Positions 13,752 to 24,022 of a stretch of DNA of 64,000 bases are shown in pieces. The notes under the pieces were generated by a model, which had not been told where the DNA came from, searched no databases, and saw only the letters and a list, made by a program, of their open reading frames with translations. Each line of letters begins with the position of its first letter. Position 1 is the first letter of the stretch. The stretch spans positions 806,001 to 870,000 of the forward strand of contig NZ_CP114588.1 of NCBI RefSeq assembly GCF_027286325.1, read 5' to 3'. This stretch comes from Salinivibrio kushneri. GTDB lineage: Bacteria; Pseudomonadota; Gammaproteobacteria; Enterobacterales; Vibrionaceae. The translations under genes were made by a program, and so were the position numbers.

Positions 13752-14417
13752 ATGTTTGAGTTCGCCGAAGTGAGTGGTTGGCAATGGGGCGGCTGGTTAT
13801 TGTGGGCAGCGGTGCTTTATCGGACCTATCCACCAGAGTTTTTCTCTAAGCTGCGCCAAGAAACCGGGTATCAGCATTTGGCGTTTTCCTCCGCGGTGGT
13901 GTTGTTTGCGTTGTGGGCGCTCCAGGCGGGGATTAAAGAAGGGCTGGATATCCACTTTTTAGGCGTGACCACTTTAGCCTTGTGCCACGGTTGGCGCATT
14001 GCTATTTGGATTGCCACTGTGCCACTGGCGTTGATGGCGGTGTTTGGTTTTGTTCCTGTTGCTGATGTGGGCATGACCGCATTGACCACGGCGGTGTTAC
14101 CTATCACTTTTAGTTATGGCATTTTCGCGCTCAGTTACCACTACTTAACCCGGCATTTGTTTATTTACATCTTTATCGCTGCATTTATCGGTGCGGCGCT
14201 CACCATGGTATTCCAGCTCTCCGTGACCTCGTTGTGGTATTGGCTGGCCGATAGGCACAGCTGGCAGGATATCGTGCATAACTACCTGCAAATTGCGCTA
14301 CTGATGTGGTTCCCTGAGGCGCTATTAAATGGCATGGCGGTGACGGTGATGGCGGTGTATCGCCCTCATTGGCTACGCACTTTTTACGATCGAGAGTATC
14401 TATCACCCGAGCGTTAG
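13752..14417 (+). CDS. CbiM-like energy-coupling-factor permease
   Basis: Integral membrane protein of 221 aa with about six to seven membrane segments. The arrangement (ALCHGWRIAIWIATVPLALMAV, TAVLPITFSYGIFALSYHYL, and the LQIALLMWFPEALLNGMAVTVMAVYRP end) resembles the CbiM S-component family of nickel/cobalt ECF transporters as found stand-alone in vibrios. No CbiN, CbiQ or CbiO gene is adjacent, and the N-terminal Met-His ATCUN-like motif of true CbiM (MHI at the start) is absent, so metal transport is unproven. Ribosome site AGGGA precedes the ATG. Confidence 0.6.
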   Translation: MFEFAEVSGWQWGGWLLWAAVLYRTYPPEFFSKLRQETGYQHLAFSSAVVLFALWALQAGIKEGLDIHFLGVTTLALCHGWRIAIWIATVPLALMAVFGFVPVADVGMTALTTAVLPITFSYGIFALSYHYLTRHLFIYIFIAAFIGAALTMVFQLSVTSLWYWLADRHSWQDIVHNYLQIALLMWFPEALLNGMAVTVMAVYRPHWLRTFYDREYLSPER

Positions 14418-14508: not shown

Positions 14509-15957
14509 TTAGGCGGTGACTAATCCTTCTTTGGCATCAGTGGGCAGGATGTCCATTGCGTTACCATAAAGTGGCGCGAGCGCTCGAACCACATTGGCGC
14601 GCGTGATCACACCCACCAATCGCTCGTCTTTCATCACCGGATAAATATAGGGGCGCGATAAGGTTTGTGTTTTGGCGCGCTCTAACGCTGATTGGGTGGT
14701 AAAGCGAGTGGCAATCCCCGCATCACTGACCGGGTAGAGCACTTGATTATCAATGCTCATGTACTGTGCCAGTTCAATCACCGATTGGTCTGCCTCAACC
14801 GTTTGTGCCTCGGTGCGCATCAGATCTTCAACTTTCGCATCCATATCTGGTTGATAGTCATTCCACCATAAATCCACCAAGACATCCTGCACCGAGAAAA
14901 AGCCAACCAGTTGATTCTGGCTGTCTACCACAGGGGCACCTTGAAGTTGATGGCGGTTAAGTTGCTCTATGGCGTCAGCCACAAACTGCTGAGCTTTTAA
15001 GGCACACTGAGCCGATTGCATATGGTTTTCAATGGTTAAGGTTTCTTGGGTCATAACAGGTCTCTCAGAATAAGGCACAGACGGTAGCGTCAATGAAGAA
15101 ATGTGCGCGGTTTTATTTTCTCTTTCTGGGTTGATAATTAGCCAATAGCCCATGCCGACAAGGCCGGCACCACCCACGATATTGCCAAGGGTGACGGGGA
15201 TTAAATTGGCGCTAATAAACTGGATGAGGTTGACATCACTAAAGGCTGCGGGGGAGCTACCTACTGCTTGCCAAAAGCTATCTGGTGCGAAGGTGGCGAT
15301 GCTCATGCCCAATGGCACCATGAACATATTGGCGACGCTGTGCTCAAAACCAGTGCTGACAAACATGGCAACAGGTAAAATCACCATCACGGCTTTGGTT
15401 AGTGGGTTTTGCGAGGTAAATGTCATCCAAATCGCTAAACAAACGAGCAAGTTACAGAGCACGCCTAGGGAGAACGCTTGCAGCCAGCTGTGATGCAGTT
15501 TGTGCTGCGCAACGTGTAGGGCGTTGAGCCCCCATTGCCCATCATCAAGCTGATACAGACCCGCTGCCATCACGATCAGTACTAACAAGAGTGCGCCACA
15601 TAAGTTGCCGATATACACCCTTGCCCAGGTATAAAGCAGGCTGCGCGTACTAATTTTACCGTTGGCGCGAGCGAGCATTGATAGCACTGTGCTGGTAAAT
15701 AGCTCGGCCCCGCCGAGCACCACGAGGATCAATCCCATGCTAAAGGCCAGTCCGCCCATCAGTCGGGTTAGCCCCCAGCCGGCATGACTGCCTGTGGTGA
15801 CCGTGAGGTAAAACACGAAAGCCAACCCGATAAACAGGCCTGCCATCATCGCCAGCCCGACGGCCATACGGGTCGATTTGCGCGACTTGCTCTCAGCGTA
15901 TTGTTCGGCTTGCACCAGCAGTGCAGCGGGGCCGTCAGTGTGAATGGGGGTTACCAT
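14509..15957 (-). CDS. Formate/nitrite channel (FNT/FocA family) fused to CBS-domain pair
   Basis: Inner-membrane pentameric channel for formate, 482 aa instead of the usual 270-290. Residues about 20-290 are a full FNT domain with six membrane helices, including GGAELFTSTVLSML, GNLCGALLLVLIV and the conserved His in STGFEHSVANMFMVPLG. After a linker, residues about 320-470 carry two CBS motifs (APVVDSQNQLVGFFSVQDVL and YPVMKDERLVGVITRANVVRAL), which usually bind adenosine nucleotides. One continuous frame, no frameshift. Start ATG has AGGAGG 6 nt upstream. A YeiE-like LysR gene is divergent. Likely partner of PflB; nucleotide gating of the channel is inference. Confidence 0.88.
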   Translation of the reverse strand: MVTPIHTDGPAALLVQAEQYAESKSRKSTRMAVGLAMMAGLFIGLAFVFYLTVTTGSHAGWGLTRLMGGLAFSMGLILVVLGGAELFTSTVLSMLARANGKISTRSLLYTWARVYIGNLCGALLLVLIVMAAGLYQLDDGQWGLNALHVAQHKLHHSWLQAFSLGVLCNLLVCLAIWMTFTSQNPLTKAVMVILPVAMFVSTGFEHSVANMFMVPLGMSIATFAPDSFWQAVGSSPAAFSDVNLIQFISANLIPVTLGNIVGGAGLVGMGYWLIINPERENKTAHISSLTLPSVPYSERPVMTQETLTIENHMQSAQCALKAQQFVADAIEQLNRHQLQGAPVVDSQNQLVGFFSVQDVLVDLWWNDYQPDMDAKVEDLMRTEAQTVEADQSVIELAQYMSIDNQVLYPVSDAGIATRFTTQSALERAKTQTLSRPYIYPVMKDERLVGVITRANVVRALAPLYGNAMDILPTDAKEGLVTA

Positions 15958-16117
15958 CGGCTGCCTCCTCTTTTGGCGATGCATGCCCGACCTTGAAGAC
16001 AAAAAAACATACTGGTTGTACTCCTTTTTAGACTGAATGTGAATAAATCCAGCCTATTCCTGTGGTTATCAGGAGTAAAATTGATATTTCTTAGGGTAAT
16101 AATCACAAAAATTGATA

Positions 16118-16155: not shown

Positions 16156-17061
16156 ATGCGCTACTCACTTAAGCAGCTTGCCGTGTTTGAGGCGATTGCT
16201 GCGATGGGCAGTGTGAGCCGTGCTGCCGATCATTTAGCGTTAACTCAGTCGGCGACTAGCATGGCGCTTTCACAGCTCGAAAAGCTACTCGGTAGGCCTC
16301 TCTTTGAGCGCCAAGGCAAGCAAATGCAGTTAACCTATTGGGGAGCATGGCTGCGACCTAAAGCACGACAACTGCTGTTTGATGCGCAACAAATTGAAGC
16401 AGGGTTTGATGGACAGCACATTATTAGTGGTGATATTGCCTTAATTGCCAGTCAGACTGCGGCAGAGCACCTGATTCCAGACCTTATCAGTATTATTGAT
16501 AGTGACTTTCCTGAGCTGAGAATCGACTTTACGGTGAAAAATACCCAGAAGGTGATTGATAGTGTGCGCCGCTATCAGCACGACTTGGGGATCATTGAAG
16601 GGCGTTGTGACGATAGCCGATTGAAGCAACAAGTGTGGTGCCATGACCATTTGGTGGTGGTGGCGGCCAAGCATCATCCTTATGCAAAGCGCGATCAGGT
16701 AAGCCTTGCGCAGCTGGAGCAAGCCCAGTGGGTGCTGAGAGAGCCGGGAGCGGGGACACGGCACAGTTTTGATAGTGCCATTCATGGCGTTATCGAAGAT
16801 CTTGATGTGCGCCGTGAATATGAGCAGGTGCCGGTATTACGCACCTTGGTGGCTAACTCCAATTACCTCAGTTGCTTGCCGTATCTTGATGTAGAAAAGT
16901 GGTTAGCACGTGAAGAGTTGGTGGCGCTAAATGTGCCTGAGCTAAACATGCGACGCACATTGTCTTTTATTTGGCGAGCGGATGCGGCGGATAACCCGTT
17001 GCGCGACTGTATTATCCGTGAAGCAATCCGAATGACGAAGGCGAGGCGACGCGAGATGTAA
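16156..17061 (+). CDS. LysR-family regulator (YeiE-like)
   Basis: LysR-type transcriptional regulator, 301 aa. Winged HTH at residues 2-60 (LKQLAVFEAIAAMGSVSRAADHL, TQSATSMALSQLEKLLGRPLF), then a periplasmic-binding-protein-like effector domain. Overall resembles E. coli YeiE. The start with GGAG 6 nt upstream giving MRYSLKQLAVFE is chosen; a longer frame to 16039 exists but its extension contains the dyad site and is probably untranslated. Divergent from the FNT-CBS formate channel, its most likely target. Confidence 0.9.
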   Translation: MRYSLKQLAVFEAIAAMGSVSRAADHLALTQSATSMALSQLEKLLGRPLFERQGKQMQLTYWGAWLRPKARQLLFDAQQIEAGFDGQHIISGDIALIASQTAAEHLIPDLISIIDSDFPELRIDFTVKNTQKVIDSVRRYQHDLGIIEGRCDDSRLKQQVWCHDHLVVVAAKHHPYAKRDQVSLAQLEQAQWVLREPGAGTRHSFDSAIHGVIEDLDVRREYEQVPVLRTLVANSNYLSCLPYLDVEKWLAREELVALNVPELNMRRTLSFIWRADAADNPLRDCIIREAIRMTKARRREM

Positions 17062-17105: not shown

Positions 17106-17846
17106 TTAGTAAGTGACACTGTGACCGTAACTGGCAATGATCTCTTTGACTCTATCCATCACTTCTTTTGATGGGGGCGAGACGTCTTGCAGCTCGTAGT
17201 CATGACCCAACGCTTCCCATTTGTGCGCGCCGAGTTGGTGGTAGGGAAGTAACTCGACTTTTTCAATGTTATCCATGTCTTGAATAAATTGGCCGAGACG
17301 ATGGGCAGAGTCATCATCATCGGTGTAACCGGGGACAACCACGTAACGAATCCAGGTTTTTTGCCCAATTTTGTGCAGGTACTTAGCAAAGTCGAGGGTT
17401 CGTCGGTTCGATACGCCGACCAAGTCTTCGTGGACGTGATCGTTGAGTTGCTTAAGATCCAGCATCACTAAATCGGTGGCCTCAAGGACTTCATCAATCA
17501 CCGGGGTGTGTTTGCGAATATAGCCGTTGGTATCTAAACAGGTGTGGATCCCTTCCGCGTTAGCGGCTCGGAAAAAATCACGCACAAATTCGGGCTGCAA
17601 CATGGCCTCACCGCCAGATGCTGTCACCCCGCCACCAGAGGCGGTGATAAAATGGCGATAGGCGCGCACATCTTTCATTATCTCATCGACGGTCACTTCT
17701 TTGCCGCCGTGCGTGTCCCACGTATCACGGTTATGACAGTATTTGCACCGCATCAAACAGCCTTGCATAAAGACAATAAAGCGGATACCTGGGCCGTCTA
17801 CGGTGCCACAGGATTCAAACGAATGGATGCGACCAATTGTCGACAT
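17106..17846 (-). CDS. pflA: Pyruvate formate-lyase 1-activating enzyme
   Basis: Radical-SAM enzyme that installs the glycyl radical on PflB, 246 aa (E. coli PflA 246). The [4Fe-4S] motif is [11 protein letters not shown] (Cys-x3-Cys-x2-Cys at about 30-37), preceded by [17 protein letters not shown], with [11 protein letters not shown] and [10 protein letters not shown] further on. GGAG ribosome site 6 nt before the ATG. It is separated from pflB by an opposite-strand chemoreceptor gene, so unlike E. coli the two are not one transcript. Confidence 0.97.
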
Positions 17847-18177
17847 AACTGTCTCCAGACTGCGAATGGCTATGTCGTCATTTTATTACAAAAGCCGGTG
17901 TGAAGATAAGGGAATTCCCCGCTTTTTCGCACTTCTCACCTTCGTATTTCTTCTTTTTTGCATTCCTGTCATAGCTTGATCACAGTTCCAGTTTTCCATC
18001 GCTTAACGAATGAGACGTTAACCAGATAAATTCCATGCTGTTTTTGTGACTTTTCGTTTTTTTGTCCAAACTTACGTGCGACACGTCGCCAAAGCGATAC
18101 ATGCTTATGCCAGGTTGCATGCAAGCAAGGACATGCTTGGTGTCAGGCTAGGATCAAAGCAAATGCTAGGACTTATA
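17847..18177. other. Divergent promoter region pflA / chemoreceptor
   Basis: No gene seen. A CRP-like sequence TGTCATAGCTTGATCACA has half-sites 8 bp apart rather than 6, so it is not called. The open frame continues upstream of the chemoreceptor start, but it has weak coding character and no good ribosome site before 18178. Confidence 0.4.
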
Positions 18178-19800
18178 ATGAGAAGAATCAGTGATCTGAG
18201 AGTGAAAAATAAGCTTGTTGCACTAATGCTGGTTGCCGTTGTGTTGCTGGCAGGGATCAGCGCGTACACCATCAACAAAGAGCGGGAGCAATCCTATGCT
18301 GAACGGACGGCCTCGTTGCGCGCCAATATTGAGGTGGCGCAAAGCGTGGTCGCCTATTACCGACAGCAGGCACCACAAATTGGCGAAGAAGAAGCAAAGG
18401 CACAAGCGATCGCCCAACTTAATAAACTGCGTTATGACGGCAATAACTACTTTTGGGTGCTTAAACCTGATCTCACCATTGTTAACCACCCGATTAAGCC
18501 CAAGTTAAACGGTACAAGTGCGGACGGGCTAACCGATGGTGACGGCAAGCATCACTGGCGTGAGATGGTGCAGGTCAGTAAAGACGCGCAGGGCGGTGTG
18601 CTCGATTACACCTGGCGCTCACCTGAGGGCGAGATGAAGCCGAAAATTTCGTACGTAAAACGGGTTGATGGCTGGAATTGGATTATTGGCTCAGGCGTCC
18701 ATGTCAGTGATATCGAGGAGCGGGTGATACAATCTGCTTGGCAAATTGGTGGTTTAACTTTGTTATCTGGCGTTATTTTGCTGGTAGCGGGTGGGTTTGT
18801 CAGCCGCGATATCGTGGTGCCATTGGACGAGCTGGTGGAAAAATTTGATCGCATTGCTGGTGGCGATCTTCGGGTAGAGTGCGGTTATACCCGCCATGAT
18901 GAAATTGGCAAACTCGCTCGTCGAATGGATACCGCAATGAGCAGTGTCCGCGAGGCGCTGCGTGTTGCGCATGAGGAAGCCAAGCAATCATCGACCATGG
19001 CGTCCTCCATTGCATCGGCCAGTGAGGAGAGTGCACAAAGTATTCAATCTCAGCGCGCACAACTTGAGCAGCTCGCCACGGCGATGAACGAAATGACGGC
19101 TACCGTGGCCGATGTTGCTGATCACGCTGAGCAAACCGCGCAAGCGACCAACGATATTTCGTCGATGGCGGAAGACAGCAACCATAAGCTAGATAGCACG
19201 GTGGCCAGTATTCGTGAAGTGGCCGAGCGTATTGCCGCAGCGGATAAATTGGTGAATCAAGTGAAGCAAGGGGTGATGGAGATCAGTGATGTGGCGACGG
19301 TGATCCAAGGCATCTCTGAGCAAACTAACCTGCTGGCACTCAATGCGGCGATTGAAGCGGCGCGAGCGGGTGAGCAAGGCCGTGGCTTTGCGGTGGTGGC
19401 CGATGAAGTGCGCTCGCTTGCACAAGGCACGCAAAAATCGACCACCCAAATTCAAGGCACGATTGAATCACTCACTAACAACGCAATTGAGGCCGCTGAG
19501 GCGATGACATCAAGCCATCAGTCTAGTGAAGACAGTGTGAATACGGCATTGGAAACTCAAGAGCAATTGAAGGAAATGGTGAGTGCTTTGCACGACTCAA
19601 ATGATCGCGTGGTACAAATTGCCGCGGCGGCAGAAGAGCAGGGCACGGTGTCGGAAGAGATGAACCAAAATGTGAGTAATATTCACAACTCGGCTAATGA
19701 AGTGAGCGGCGCGGCGTCGCACCTTGCTGAGCAAAGCCAGTTACTTGCAGATTCAGCACGCGAGTTGGACAGTAAGTTGGATCGCTTTGAAGTGGGGTAA
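18178..19800 (+). CDS. Methyl-accepting chemotaxis protein, Cache sensor
   Basis: Membrane chemoreceptor, 540 aa. Order: first membrane helix (about 12-32), periplasmic single-Cache domain (about 40-185, with [19 protein letters not shown] and the [15 protein letters not shown] end), second membrane helix (about 192-212), HAMP, then the cytoplasmic signalling domain whose hairpin tip [19 protein letters not shown] and [15 protein letters not shown] is canonical. The ligand is not predictable; Cache domains of this type often bind small organic acids. Start chosen at ATG giving [13 protein letters not shown] with AGGA upstream. Placed between pflA and pflB, a location also seen in vibrios. Confidence 0.92.
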
Positions 19801-19966: not shown

Positions 19967-22243
<2,277 letters not shown>

Positions 22244-22376
22244 GTTGCACCTACCTGTACTCTTTTCAAAAAGATATGTATTGGGACCAGGTTCAGTCAT
22301 CGTATTTGTCAGTATGGCTGACGCCTGCGACCCATCGATTTATCCGGATACCCCGCCCGAAAGCGGGGCAATGTTC

Positions 22377-23888
22377 TTACAACAAAGATGGAATGCCGGG
22401 AATCATTCCGACTGCCAACATGGCAGCAATACAAATGATCACTGTGGCGGTTGGAATCACCAGACGGTCAACGGTAGAAAGCGTTGTAGGACGCTCTTTA
22501 TCACCGATAAGGCCGTTGTTGTCCAAGAGCATAGTGACTGCCCAACCAAAGACTGGGTTAACAGCCATGGAGGCGAAAATACAAATACCGGCTGCCTGGC
22601 TCGACTTGGCGTCTTTCACCATCTGCATGCCTGCTTCAAGCAAGGGCAGGAACACACCCGATAGTAGCGCAATGGTCATCACGGGTGGCCAAGTGGCGAC
22701 ATCCATAGGATAGCCAATCAAGGCAACGGCAATACATAGCAGACCCAGTACAATGGCACCGCCAGGGATGGGTCGACGCGCAATCGCCGCCGGAATCATG
22801 TAGGTTCCCCACGATGAGGTGATGTTACCGCCACCCACAGAGGCACCAACCATTTGACGGATAGAACAACCAGTCATGGTGTCATCCACGTCCATCAATA
22901 CTTTTTCGGCTTTCTTCGGATAATTTAGTTCCTGGAAAATACGGTGACCCAGAAAGTCTGGCGACCACATCGCCACAGCCAGCAATGCAAATGGCAAAGA
23001 GGCAAGGAAGTGCGACAGGTTTGGAAGTCCTAGCTGCCAACCTTGCTCGGTTGAGCCCCACCAGTAAACCGGATTAAGGTTAGGCACACCTGGTTGAGTA
23101 ACGAATTCCAGTGACGAGCCAGCACCTAGGGCTGTGGCAATTAATCCACCGGTGACCGCACAAACCGGAATCGCGAGCCAGCGTTTGCCGATGCGCGCCA
23201 AGAAGGCATAGATCACAATCGATACGGCGAGAATTAAAATGGAGATATAGCCCATATCAATCGCCGCGCCCCATGCGAGCAGGCTCTCAATTTGCCCTTT
23301 TGCGCCACCAAAGCCGAGGAAGATCAGCAAGCCGCCCGCGACCCCTTGGCTGGTCAAGTTGACTAGTTTGGAGCCCCCTTTTAGGTAGCTTAGTATCAGA
23401 CCAAAAGCACCAATCAGAATCCCCAGAGCCAGAGGGTGCGCCCCTGCTAACGCGATGGTGCCAACCAGTGGGATCATTGGTCCGTGGTTGCCAGCCAAGT
23501 TGGCGCGGGGGTTAATAAACCCGCACAACAGGACACAGAACAGAAGTGCAGGGATGAGCATTTCTACCCGCGCCACTTCAACGGCAAACGCTTTACCCAA
23601 GGTGATGTGATCCCAAGCAGCGGTTAAACCGTCCGCCCAAGACATCATCACTGCAGAGTACATGGCGATAATGCCAATGGTACCCGCTACAGCAGGGACA
23701 AGGTCTTCGATTTCAAAACGGAAGTCACGGCCAGGCAGGTTTAAGCCCCAACGGCGCGGACGCATAATTTGTAGTTCGTGATTCAGGTAGTCAGCGCGGG
23801 AGGCAAATGAAGAAGCCGGCTTGTGCTTCTTTTGGTATTCGCTCTTTTCTTCGTGACTCACACTGCGGTCTTGAGCATGTGTTGCCAT
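22377..23888 (-). CDS. DUF3360 family membrane transporter
   Basis: Inner-membrane protein of 503 aa with about 12 hydrophobic segments, matching the vibrio DUF3360 family, distantly like SulP/NCS2-type permeases. Recognisable stretches: LVPAVAGTIGIIAMYSAVMM, GFINPRANLAGNHGPMIPLV, ASVGGGNITSSWGTYMIPAA. Substrate unknown. GAGGAA ribosome site 3-5 nt before the ATG; 36 extra in-frame codons upstream are not used. It occupies the position that focA has before pflB in E. coli, and a FNR-like box lies about 135 bp upstream, so an organic-acid transport role in fermentation is a reasonable guess. Confidence 0.8.
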   Translation of the reverse strand: MATHAQDRSVSHEEKSEYQKKHKPASSFASRADYLNHELQIMRPRRWGLNLPGRDFRFEIEDLVPAVAGTIGIIAMYSAVMMSWADGLTAAWDHITLGKAFAVEVARVEMLIPALLFCVLLCGFINPRANLAGNHGPMIPLVGTIALAGAHPLALGILIGAFGLILSYLKGGSKLVNLTSQGVAGGLLIFLGFGGAKGQIESLLAWGAAIDMGYISILILAVSIVIYAFLARIGKRWLAIPVCAVTGGLIATALGAGSSLEFVTQPGVPNLNPVYWWGSTEQGWQLGLPNLSHFLASLPFALLAVAMWSPDFLGHRIFQELNYPKKAEKVLMDVDDTMTGCSIRQMVGASVGGGNITSSWGTYMIPAAIARRPIPGGAIVLGLLCIAVALIGYPMDVATWPPVMTIALLSGVFLPLLEAGMQMVKDAKSSQAAGICIFASMAVNPVFGWAVTMLLDNNGLIGDKERPTTLSTVDRLVIPTATVIICIAAMLAVGMIPGIPSLL

Positions 23889-23905
23889 AATTTCCTCGTC
23901 GTACA

Positions 23906-23921
23906 GAAAGCAAACGCTTTC
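23906..23921. promoter_or_regulatory. Inverted repeat in the DUF3360 leader
   Basis: Perfect 6-bp inverted repeat GAAAGC-AAAC-GCTTTC about 20 bp before the start codon. It could be a small operator or an mRNA hairpin. Confidence 0.35.
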
Positions 23922-24022
23922 GAAACAGTGGCTTAGCCAGTCTTTGTGTGTTGTTAACGCTGGCCTTATGGCCGTGTTCTGTTTCGTTATCAGCATGCTA
24001 ACAACAGGGTGGGCGTAGAATG

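Follow-up and report, generated by a model that had tools for sequence, protein, structure and literature searches.

A FocA-type formate channel with a fused CBS pair in Salinivibrio kushneri, its divergent LysR partner, and a probable internal start for a free CBS subunit among its relatives

The window analysed here is a 64,000-nt stretch of the Salinivibrio kushneri genome, and at its focA-CBS gene (14509..15957, minus strand) a formate channel continues into a pair of CBS domains. The start ATG lies at 15957, with AGAGGAGG upstream, and on translation the gene is a single uninterrupted frame of 482 aa with no internal stop. Pfam searches place PF01226, the FNT channel domain, at residues 16-273 (15139..15912, minus strand; E 7e-73) and PF00571 in two stretches of the same protein (E 2.2e-14), both over cut-off; the resulting CBS pair, or Bateman module, covers residues 305-470 (14548..15045, minus strand) on the combined evidence of Pfam, an AlphaFold model of the tail and fold matches. 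A sequence-only reading of the window had called a complete FNT domain with an in-frame CBS pair in 482 aa, and had made this a cytoplasmic CBS pair on a formate channel. The first call is borne out by translation and Pfam, and the domains and the FocA score given below show the second to be right. Frameshift, chimera or single-genome artefact was rejected, since the full-length fusion occurs in all eight Salinivibrio genomes searched (the window's own included, at 87-100% identity) and in 80 of 80 named loci (the best 80 of 134 confirmed relatives), each of which also encodes an adjacent LysR.

In the window the divergent partner of the channel gene is a LysR-type regulator of 301 aa (16156..17061, plus strand), assigned by domain search and locus comparison. 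Beyond it are pflA, for the pyruvate formate-lyase activating enzyme (17106..17846, minus strand), and pflB, for pyruvate formate-lyase itself (19967..22300, minus strand), both named by NCBIfam. On the other side of focA-CBS lies a CbiM/ECF-like membrane protein (13752-14417, plus strand), a neighbour kept in 6 of 21 compared loci, the window among them.

The channel part scores 358.5 bits against the NCBIfam model TIGR04060 FocA (cut-off 290.1), which puts it within that equivalog. Against the enterobacterial FocA model PRK10805 (NF008069) it reaches 317.7 bits, below the cut-off of 440, and the window channel therefore falls outside that narrower group. Its best solved-structure matches are 3kly, 3q7k and 3kcu, listed in a taxonomic FNT survey as the FocA proteins of V. 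cholerae, Salmonella and E. coli, respectively (PMC5525234). It is the sole FNT gene found in its own genome (two contigs, 3.46 Mb). Nine pore positions were checked, numbered as in E. coli FocA (window number plus 3, from the alignment range to 3kcu): F75, L79, L89, T91, K156, V175, F202, H209 and N262. All are kept in the window protein and unchanged in 32 of 32 aligned fusions; F75 and F202 are residues that we take to be pore positions. Passages of the survey describe L79, L89 and V175 as such (PMC5525234), and a second source gives K156, N262, T91 and H209 (PMC9380403).

The window protein shares with E. coli FocA, encoded by focA-pflB, the channel family over the whole FNT domain, the pore residues, the N-terminal helix (residues 10-25 by structure prediction) and a PflB in the genome. 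It differs in its extra CBS pair and in its C-terminus after TM6, where it lacks the Y-L-R/K motif (it reads YWLIINPE); the Vibrio rows shown among the aligned fusions have IYRR. For E. coli FocA this C-terminal Y-L-R motif is reported to be indispensable for translocation in both directions (PMC5572259). The gene differs too, having a LysR partner and lying beside pflA rather than before pflB. In the window the position of E. coli focA is occupied by a DUF3360 protein directly upstream of pflB (22377..23996, minus strand; Pfam and locus comparison).

We examined which neighbours are constant. A LysR orthologue stands divergent next to the fusion in 21 of 21 compared loci, no other gene cluster is found in more than 8 of the 21, and the neighbourhoods beyond LysR vary. 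Membership of a pfl operon was rejected as the defining context, with pflB lying within the fetched stretch in 5 of the 21 loci and LysR as the constant neighbour. Among distinct fusions 147 of 149 have a divergent LysR within 700 bp, a partly biased count in that 63 fusion rows (before duplicate merging) fall in loci L112-L201, nearly all fetched via LysR. Where loci were fetched by fusion or tail alone, LysR is adjacent in 19 of 20, 17 of 18 and 80 of 80; the miss in the first set (L036) comes from an ORF filter that kept an antisense frame, and locus comparison places LysR next to the fusion there. The fusions without adjacent LysR are L078, a real miss, together with L093 and L094, which are outside the 149-fusion set. 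Taken from the side of the regulator, the 139 distinct LysR proteins scoring over 430 bits to the profile face FNT-CBS (130), free CBS (3), FNT (2, including the "FNT only" locus L148, whose contig ends inside the gene) or neither (4). Of the 19 weaker ones (at or below 430 bits), three face FNT-CBS and 16 neither an FNT nor a CBS gene, among the latter the ten of L182-L191 and the four of L178-L181 (see below). A scan of the class for this LysR returned one of 274 genomes, the window's own. Among solved structures the window LysR best matches the LysR entry 8sbf, a Rubisco-operon regulator and YeiE. Identity as YeiE or as a sulfite regulator is not supported: YeiE is its best NCBIfam match, but at 214 bits against an equivalog cut-off of 480 it is outside the YeiE equivalog.

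Between the two genes, ATCAATTTTTGTGAT and ATCAATTTTAC (16075..16117, minus strand) form a pair of ATCAA-type boxes with a spacing of 31 bp; they are candidate LysR binding sites. From 81 intergenic regions three were dropped for lying outside 60-420 bp. Of the remaining 78, 76 carry an ATCAA-N5-TTGAT-like box whose start is exactly 31 bp ahead of ATCAATTTTAC (mismatches 0-3, exact in 70 of 78), a count that overstates independence owing to the shared descent of the sequences. Single-base shuffles hardly ever yield either, and by eye the sequence outside the boxes differs widely between genera. Allowing up to three mismatches, the composite occurs once in the window's own genome, at focA-CBS/LysR. 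Boxes and divergent gene together are what one would look for if a LysR regulator serves a single main target, and the regulator would bind there. Several ATCAATTTTAC matches in the distant loci examined fall within genes, so we do not claim the boxes for those loci. FNR and CRP sites between LysR and the channel gene were considered and rejected (exact palindromes in 0 of 81 regions for each, relaxed forms in 1 of 81 for each).

The spread of the FNT-CBS fusion, a check proposed with the sequence-only reading, turns out to be wide. The tail was detected in 232 of 329 Vibrionaceae genomes and 8 of 13 genera (E<=1e-24), and fused frames of about 440-640 codons occur, besides family f1, in families f2, f6, f10, f12, f13 and f21 of the same order. 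The named loci (best 80 of 134 confirmed) come from Salinivibrio, Photobacterium, Thaumasiovibrio, Vibrio, Neiella, Zooshikella ganghwensis and Pseudovibrio exalbescens; within the same 80, the nearest relatives are Salinivibrio species, with tail identity up to 97%. Outside the order an intact LysR/FocA-CBS pair is present in the alphaproteobacterium P. exalbescens (L218) and in Z. ganghwensis (L219), which suggests transfer as a two-gene unit, these loci being taken as assembled, with contamination possible.

The channel and its CBS module can come apart. In three loci (L149, with LysR; L195; L196) FNT and CBS are encoded by two adjacent genes. At L196 (2300-3805, minus strand) the two lie in the same frame with one stop codon between them, so it would seem a small step from the split to the fused form and back. 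In L067, L070 and L081, and likewise by coordinates in G686, LysR has beside it a free CBS frame of about 170-195 codons; in genome G671, the source of L070, LysR and CBS are kept and our search found no FNT gene. Two genomes of the Vibrio group (L088, L092) keep the channel and LysR but lack CBS altogether, which makes the module dispensable there. In a tree of FNT domains (rows over 90% alike merged, 206 to 75) these two share a fork (92/90, not starred) whose other members are fusions from the Vibrio group and Zooshikella, and six free-standing FocA proteins of the classical kind group in a single clade with support (100/99). The fusion label needs five changes on this tree, at least two of them forced by supported branches.

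In one sense focA-CBS is ordinary, a widespread gene whose channel part is called FocA by current models. Open-licence literature searched for FocA/FNT with CBS, with LysR, or for FocA-PflB gating gave no paper on an FNT-CBS protein among the matches listed. The term "CBS" is absent from the main text of the taxonomic FNT survey (PMC5525234), as far as its sections were available, and from the available sections of a 2025 FocA review (PMC11841067). The LysR/focA-CBS two-gene unit, its modularity and its predicted second product appear unreported in the open-licence literature searched.

The isolated tail is predicted as a CBS pair (AlphaFold, mean pLDDT 74.8); both structure models in this study are monomers, with mean pLDDT about 74-75. 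Its fold matches are MJ0922, AcuB with AMP/ADP, CBSX2 with AMP, and DarB with AMP or c-di-AMP, at Z 12.3-13.7, where rows within 1 Z unit count as tied; further neighbours are AcuB with Ap4A and MJ0100 with MTA/SAM. In CBS1, residues G352, S355 and D358 are invariant in 32 of 32 aligned fusions and form G-x-x-S-x-x-D, an instance of G-h-x-S/T-x-x-D, which we take to be the usual CBS adenosine motif. The CBS2 counterpart is degenerate in the same alignment, with G449 invariant and T452 and N455 variable; of the usual pair of sites no more than one, that of CBS1, therefore looks intact. A more divergent alignment of 25 tails keeps the CBS1 S in 23 and the D in 22, with G48, W60, P132, V137 and R149 (tail numbering) invariant throughout. 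CBS2 also departs from the canonical form by a conserved insertion of about 30 residues (404-436, YPVSxxGIAT...ERA...RP; 14650..14748, minus strand), much of it at low model confidence, and R427, P436, P440 and R453 are invariant in the 32 aligned fusions.

These observations bear on the suggestion of the sequence-only reading that the pair may sense nucleotides and hence the energy state of the cell. Nucleotide sensing is plausible from the CBS1 motif and the AMP- and ADP-bound fold neighbours, and on the same grounds AMP, ADP and ATP are the likeliest CBS1 ligands; the CBS2 motif is degenerate, and gating of the channel by energy state is a step that we infer. AcuB of Bacilli, which carries an ACT domain, is a close fold match to the tail (Z 12.3-13.2 over the AcuB rows); it differs in being soluble, in acting on the acetylation system and in not being attached to a channel. 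AcuB has been reported as a sensor of the cell's energy charge in connection with acetyl-CoA synthesis (PMC13121692). The fold neighbours holding c-di-AMP, Ap4A or MTA/SAM, together with the degenerate CBS2 motif, the conserved insertion and the four invariant residues in and after it, would also suit a pair that binds some other ligand (Ap4A, SAM, a cyclic dinucleotide or a further metabolite); it would then be this signal, rather than energy charge, that gates the channel. We consider this somewhat unlikely, given the ordinary adenosine motif that CBS1 retains in every aligned fusion.

An in-frame ATG (Met302; 15052..15054, minus strand) lies at the start of the CBS module and is the predicted start of a free CBS subunit of 181 aa. 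In the window it is preceded by GAGAGA (15061..15066, minus strand), a weak Shine-Dalgarno-like stretch at -2.9 kcal/mol. The free CBS proteins of relatives start where the fused proteins have a Met just ahead of the module. Among 139 fusion genes (those left after removal of exact duplicate tails) 137 have an in-frame ATG within a 14-codon stretch at this place, against a background of 2179 in 4830 equal-sized stretches along the fusion genes, and a strong Shine-Dalgarno precedes 118 of the 137, compared with 24 of the 2622 in-frame ATGs found elsewhere in those genes. Merging of genes over 80% alike reduced 151 fusions to 68, of which 66 keep the internal ATG (the exceptions are L067 and L172); the median anti-Shine-Dalgarno energy in the non-redundant set is -6.0 kcal/mol, versus -1.5 at 1076 other ATGs. 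With the ATG picked blind to the upstream sequence, 91% of 65 non-redundant genes are at or below -5 kcal/mol, whereas 300 synonymous-codon shuffles, which preserve the protein, bring a mean of 32% and a maximum of 46% to that level. Codon choice in the Shine-Dalgarno stretch is biased accordingly: Lys is AAG in 33 of 39 cases (331 of 1238 elsewhere) and Gly is GGA in 18 of 19 (361 of 2329 elsewhere). An excess beyond synonymous shuffling, combined with this codon bias, points to selection on the nucleotide sequence at the internal site in the clade. Among the 60 genes whose Shine-Dalgarno core is recognisable, the commonest gap to the ATG is 8 nt (37 genes), and ATG and Shine-Dalgarno occur together in fusions of seven families (the six named above and f1), with differing linker residues.

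The simplest reason for such a conserved site would be a working start codon, and at clade level the gene probably makes both the channel and a free CBS subunit. We are less sure of this for Salinivibrio than for the clade. All seven Salinivibrio copies examined keep the internal ATG, with Shine-Dalgarno energies of -2.9 to -3.1 kcal/mol, and a quarter of other in-frame ATGs are at -2.8 or lower; the window and six others make up the 7 of 66 ATG-bearing non-redundant fusions that lie above -5 kcal/mol. L067, which has no internal ATG, has a separate CBS gene next door. G400 and G263 have a separate CBS as well as the internal start, so there is no clean trade-off between the two. The site might instead be a relic of two separate genes, or a ribosome-pausing site that aids membrane insertion, with no free CBS made. 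The separate FNT and CBS genes of L149, L195 and L196 and the weak Shine-Dalgarno of the window's own gene would fit such an origin, but a relic is expected to decay, while ATG and Shine-Dalgarno persist across the seven families despite their different linkers, with the Lys and Gly codon bias given above; pausing needs no ATG at start-codon spacing. We regard this explanation as unlikely, and a free subunit from a working internal start remains our preferred reading for the clade.

All 37 module-bearing genomes tested for PflB have it; in hand-picked genomes it is found in 7 of 7 with the LysR and also in 23 of 33 without it, so the link is suggestive only. In E. coli FocA, PflB interacts with the N-terminal helix, the presumed gating route, and FocA gating is still under study, PflB and this helix being the handles described in the sections of the 2025 review available (PMC11841067). 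The statement of the sequence-only reading that the channel is gated "unlike E. coli FocA" was too strong, as the helix is kept and PflB accompanies the module; control through the N-terminus and PflB may act here as well, and CBS control may add to it without necessarily replacing it. Formate assimilation was rejected as a general role, a full-length formate-THF ligase being found in just 16 of the 37 module-bearing genomes; a gene named by eye as this ligase, with PF01268 matches at those places, adjoins the fusion in L034 and L037 and lies close by in L035, and the window's own genome has one elsewhere.

The protein ends in Ala (codon at 14512..14514, minus strand), as do 79 of the 80 named fusions, themselves the best 80 among 134 confirmed relatives (TA 46, SA 17, IA 10), and the sequence just before it is variable; a degron or docking motif is possible. 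The module as a whole might accordingly be a docking element (for PflB, LysR or a free CBS protein), or a turnover element acting through the terminal Ala, with no ligand sensing. The persistence of that Ala behind a variable stretch, the retention of CBS with LysR in L070 and the constant presence of PflB could all be read this way, yet such a role would not call for invariant ligand-motif residues in CBS1, and LysR is the one cluster that passes 8 of 21 loci as a neighbour; we think it decidedly improbable. That the gene is an ordinary FocA with an inert extra tail we take to be very improbable indeed: the channel part does score as FocA and L088 and L092 do without the tail, but the tail is retained across most Vibrionaceae genomes with its motif residues invariant.

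We propose, with middling confidence, that the gene encodes a FocA-type formate/formic-acid channel in which a cytoplasmic CBS pair on each protomer would modulate formate passage, and that the divergent LysR would control its expression through the paired ATCAA boxes. Across the whole clade, translation of this mRNA from the internal start codon would additionally give a free CBS subunit. CBS pairs usually act as dimers and FNT channels are pentamers, which cannot pair five modules among themselves; for this reason we suppose that free CBS subunits may pair with the tethered ones. Occupancy of the CBS1 site, likeliest by an adenine nucleotide, would then change the ring, and this change would favour or restrict formate release while PflB makes acetyl-CoA and formate. 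A more specific form of the proposal is offered tentatively, as a minority possibility: one gene would give a pentameric channel with tethered CBS plus free CBS, arranged as a five-plus-five cytoplasmic ring that gates formate by adenine nucleotide, with LysR setting the amount of the assembly.

Other membrane transporters bear a CBS pair, namely MgtE, CNNM/CorC, OpuA/OpuC and CLC, and CBS-domain structures of MgtE, CorB/CorC and OpuCA are among the structure matches of the tail. These transporters act as dimers, so their CBS pairs can match up, whereas the FNT channel is a pentamer. A closer likeness is MthK, in which a separately made soluble RCK, starting at M107, has been proposed to pair with the tethered RCK into a gating ring (PMC2573919). 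The isolated RCK from M107 resembles the predicted free CBS from the internal Met; MthK differs in its unrelated pore, its tetrameric state, its RCK in place of CBS and its Ca2+ ligand. If the five-plus-five ring is true, it would be the FNT counterpart of MthK's ring and would resolve the mismatch in symmetry between dimer-forming CBS pairs and a pentamer. More generally, the CBS fusion suggests an unexpected gating mode for a formate channel. A large natural group with a ligand-sensor-like domain, and with split, free and lost relatives, makes allosteric control of formate flux directly testable; the free subunit, if it exists, would show how a dimeric sensor can serve a pentamer, and the LysR/box pair could serve as a reporter for the signal that switches the system on.

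We finally note some further features of these loci: (i) A second LysR clade (L182-L191, 357-404 bits) lies beside a protein of 720-780 aa, AsmA-like by eye, and apparently has a different function. (ii) A chemoreceptor with an sCache_2 sensor (18046-19800, plus strand; Pfam) stands between pflA and pflB in the window, as also in L032 and L036, and formate- or pyruvate-related taxis is possible. (iii) For the DUF3360 protein no solved-structure relative was found by sequence search and no paper by literature search; by eye it is a putative membrane transporter and thus a candidate second formate transporter. The order DUF3360-pflB recurs in L032, L034, L036 and L037. In L155, L158 and L159 a DUF3360 protein 70-71% identical to that of the window lies beside LysR, with pflB next by coordinates, and in L178-L181 it adjoins a weaker LysR; over L155, L158, L159 and L178-L181 together its identity to the window protein is 70-73%.
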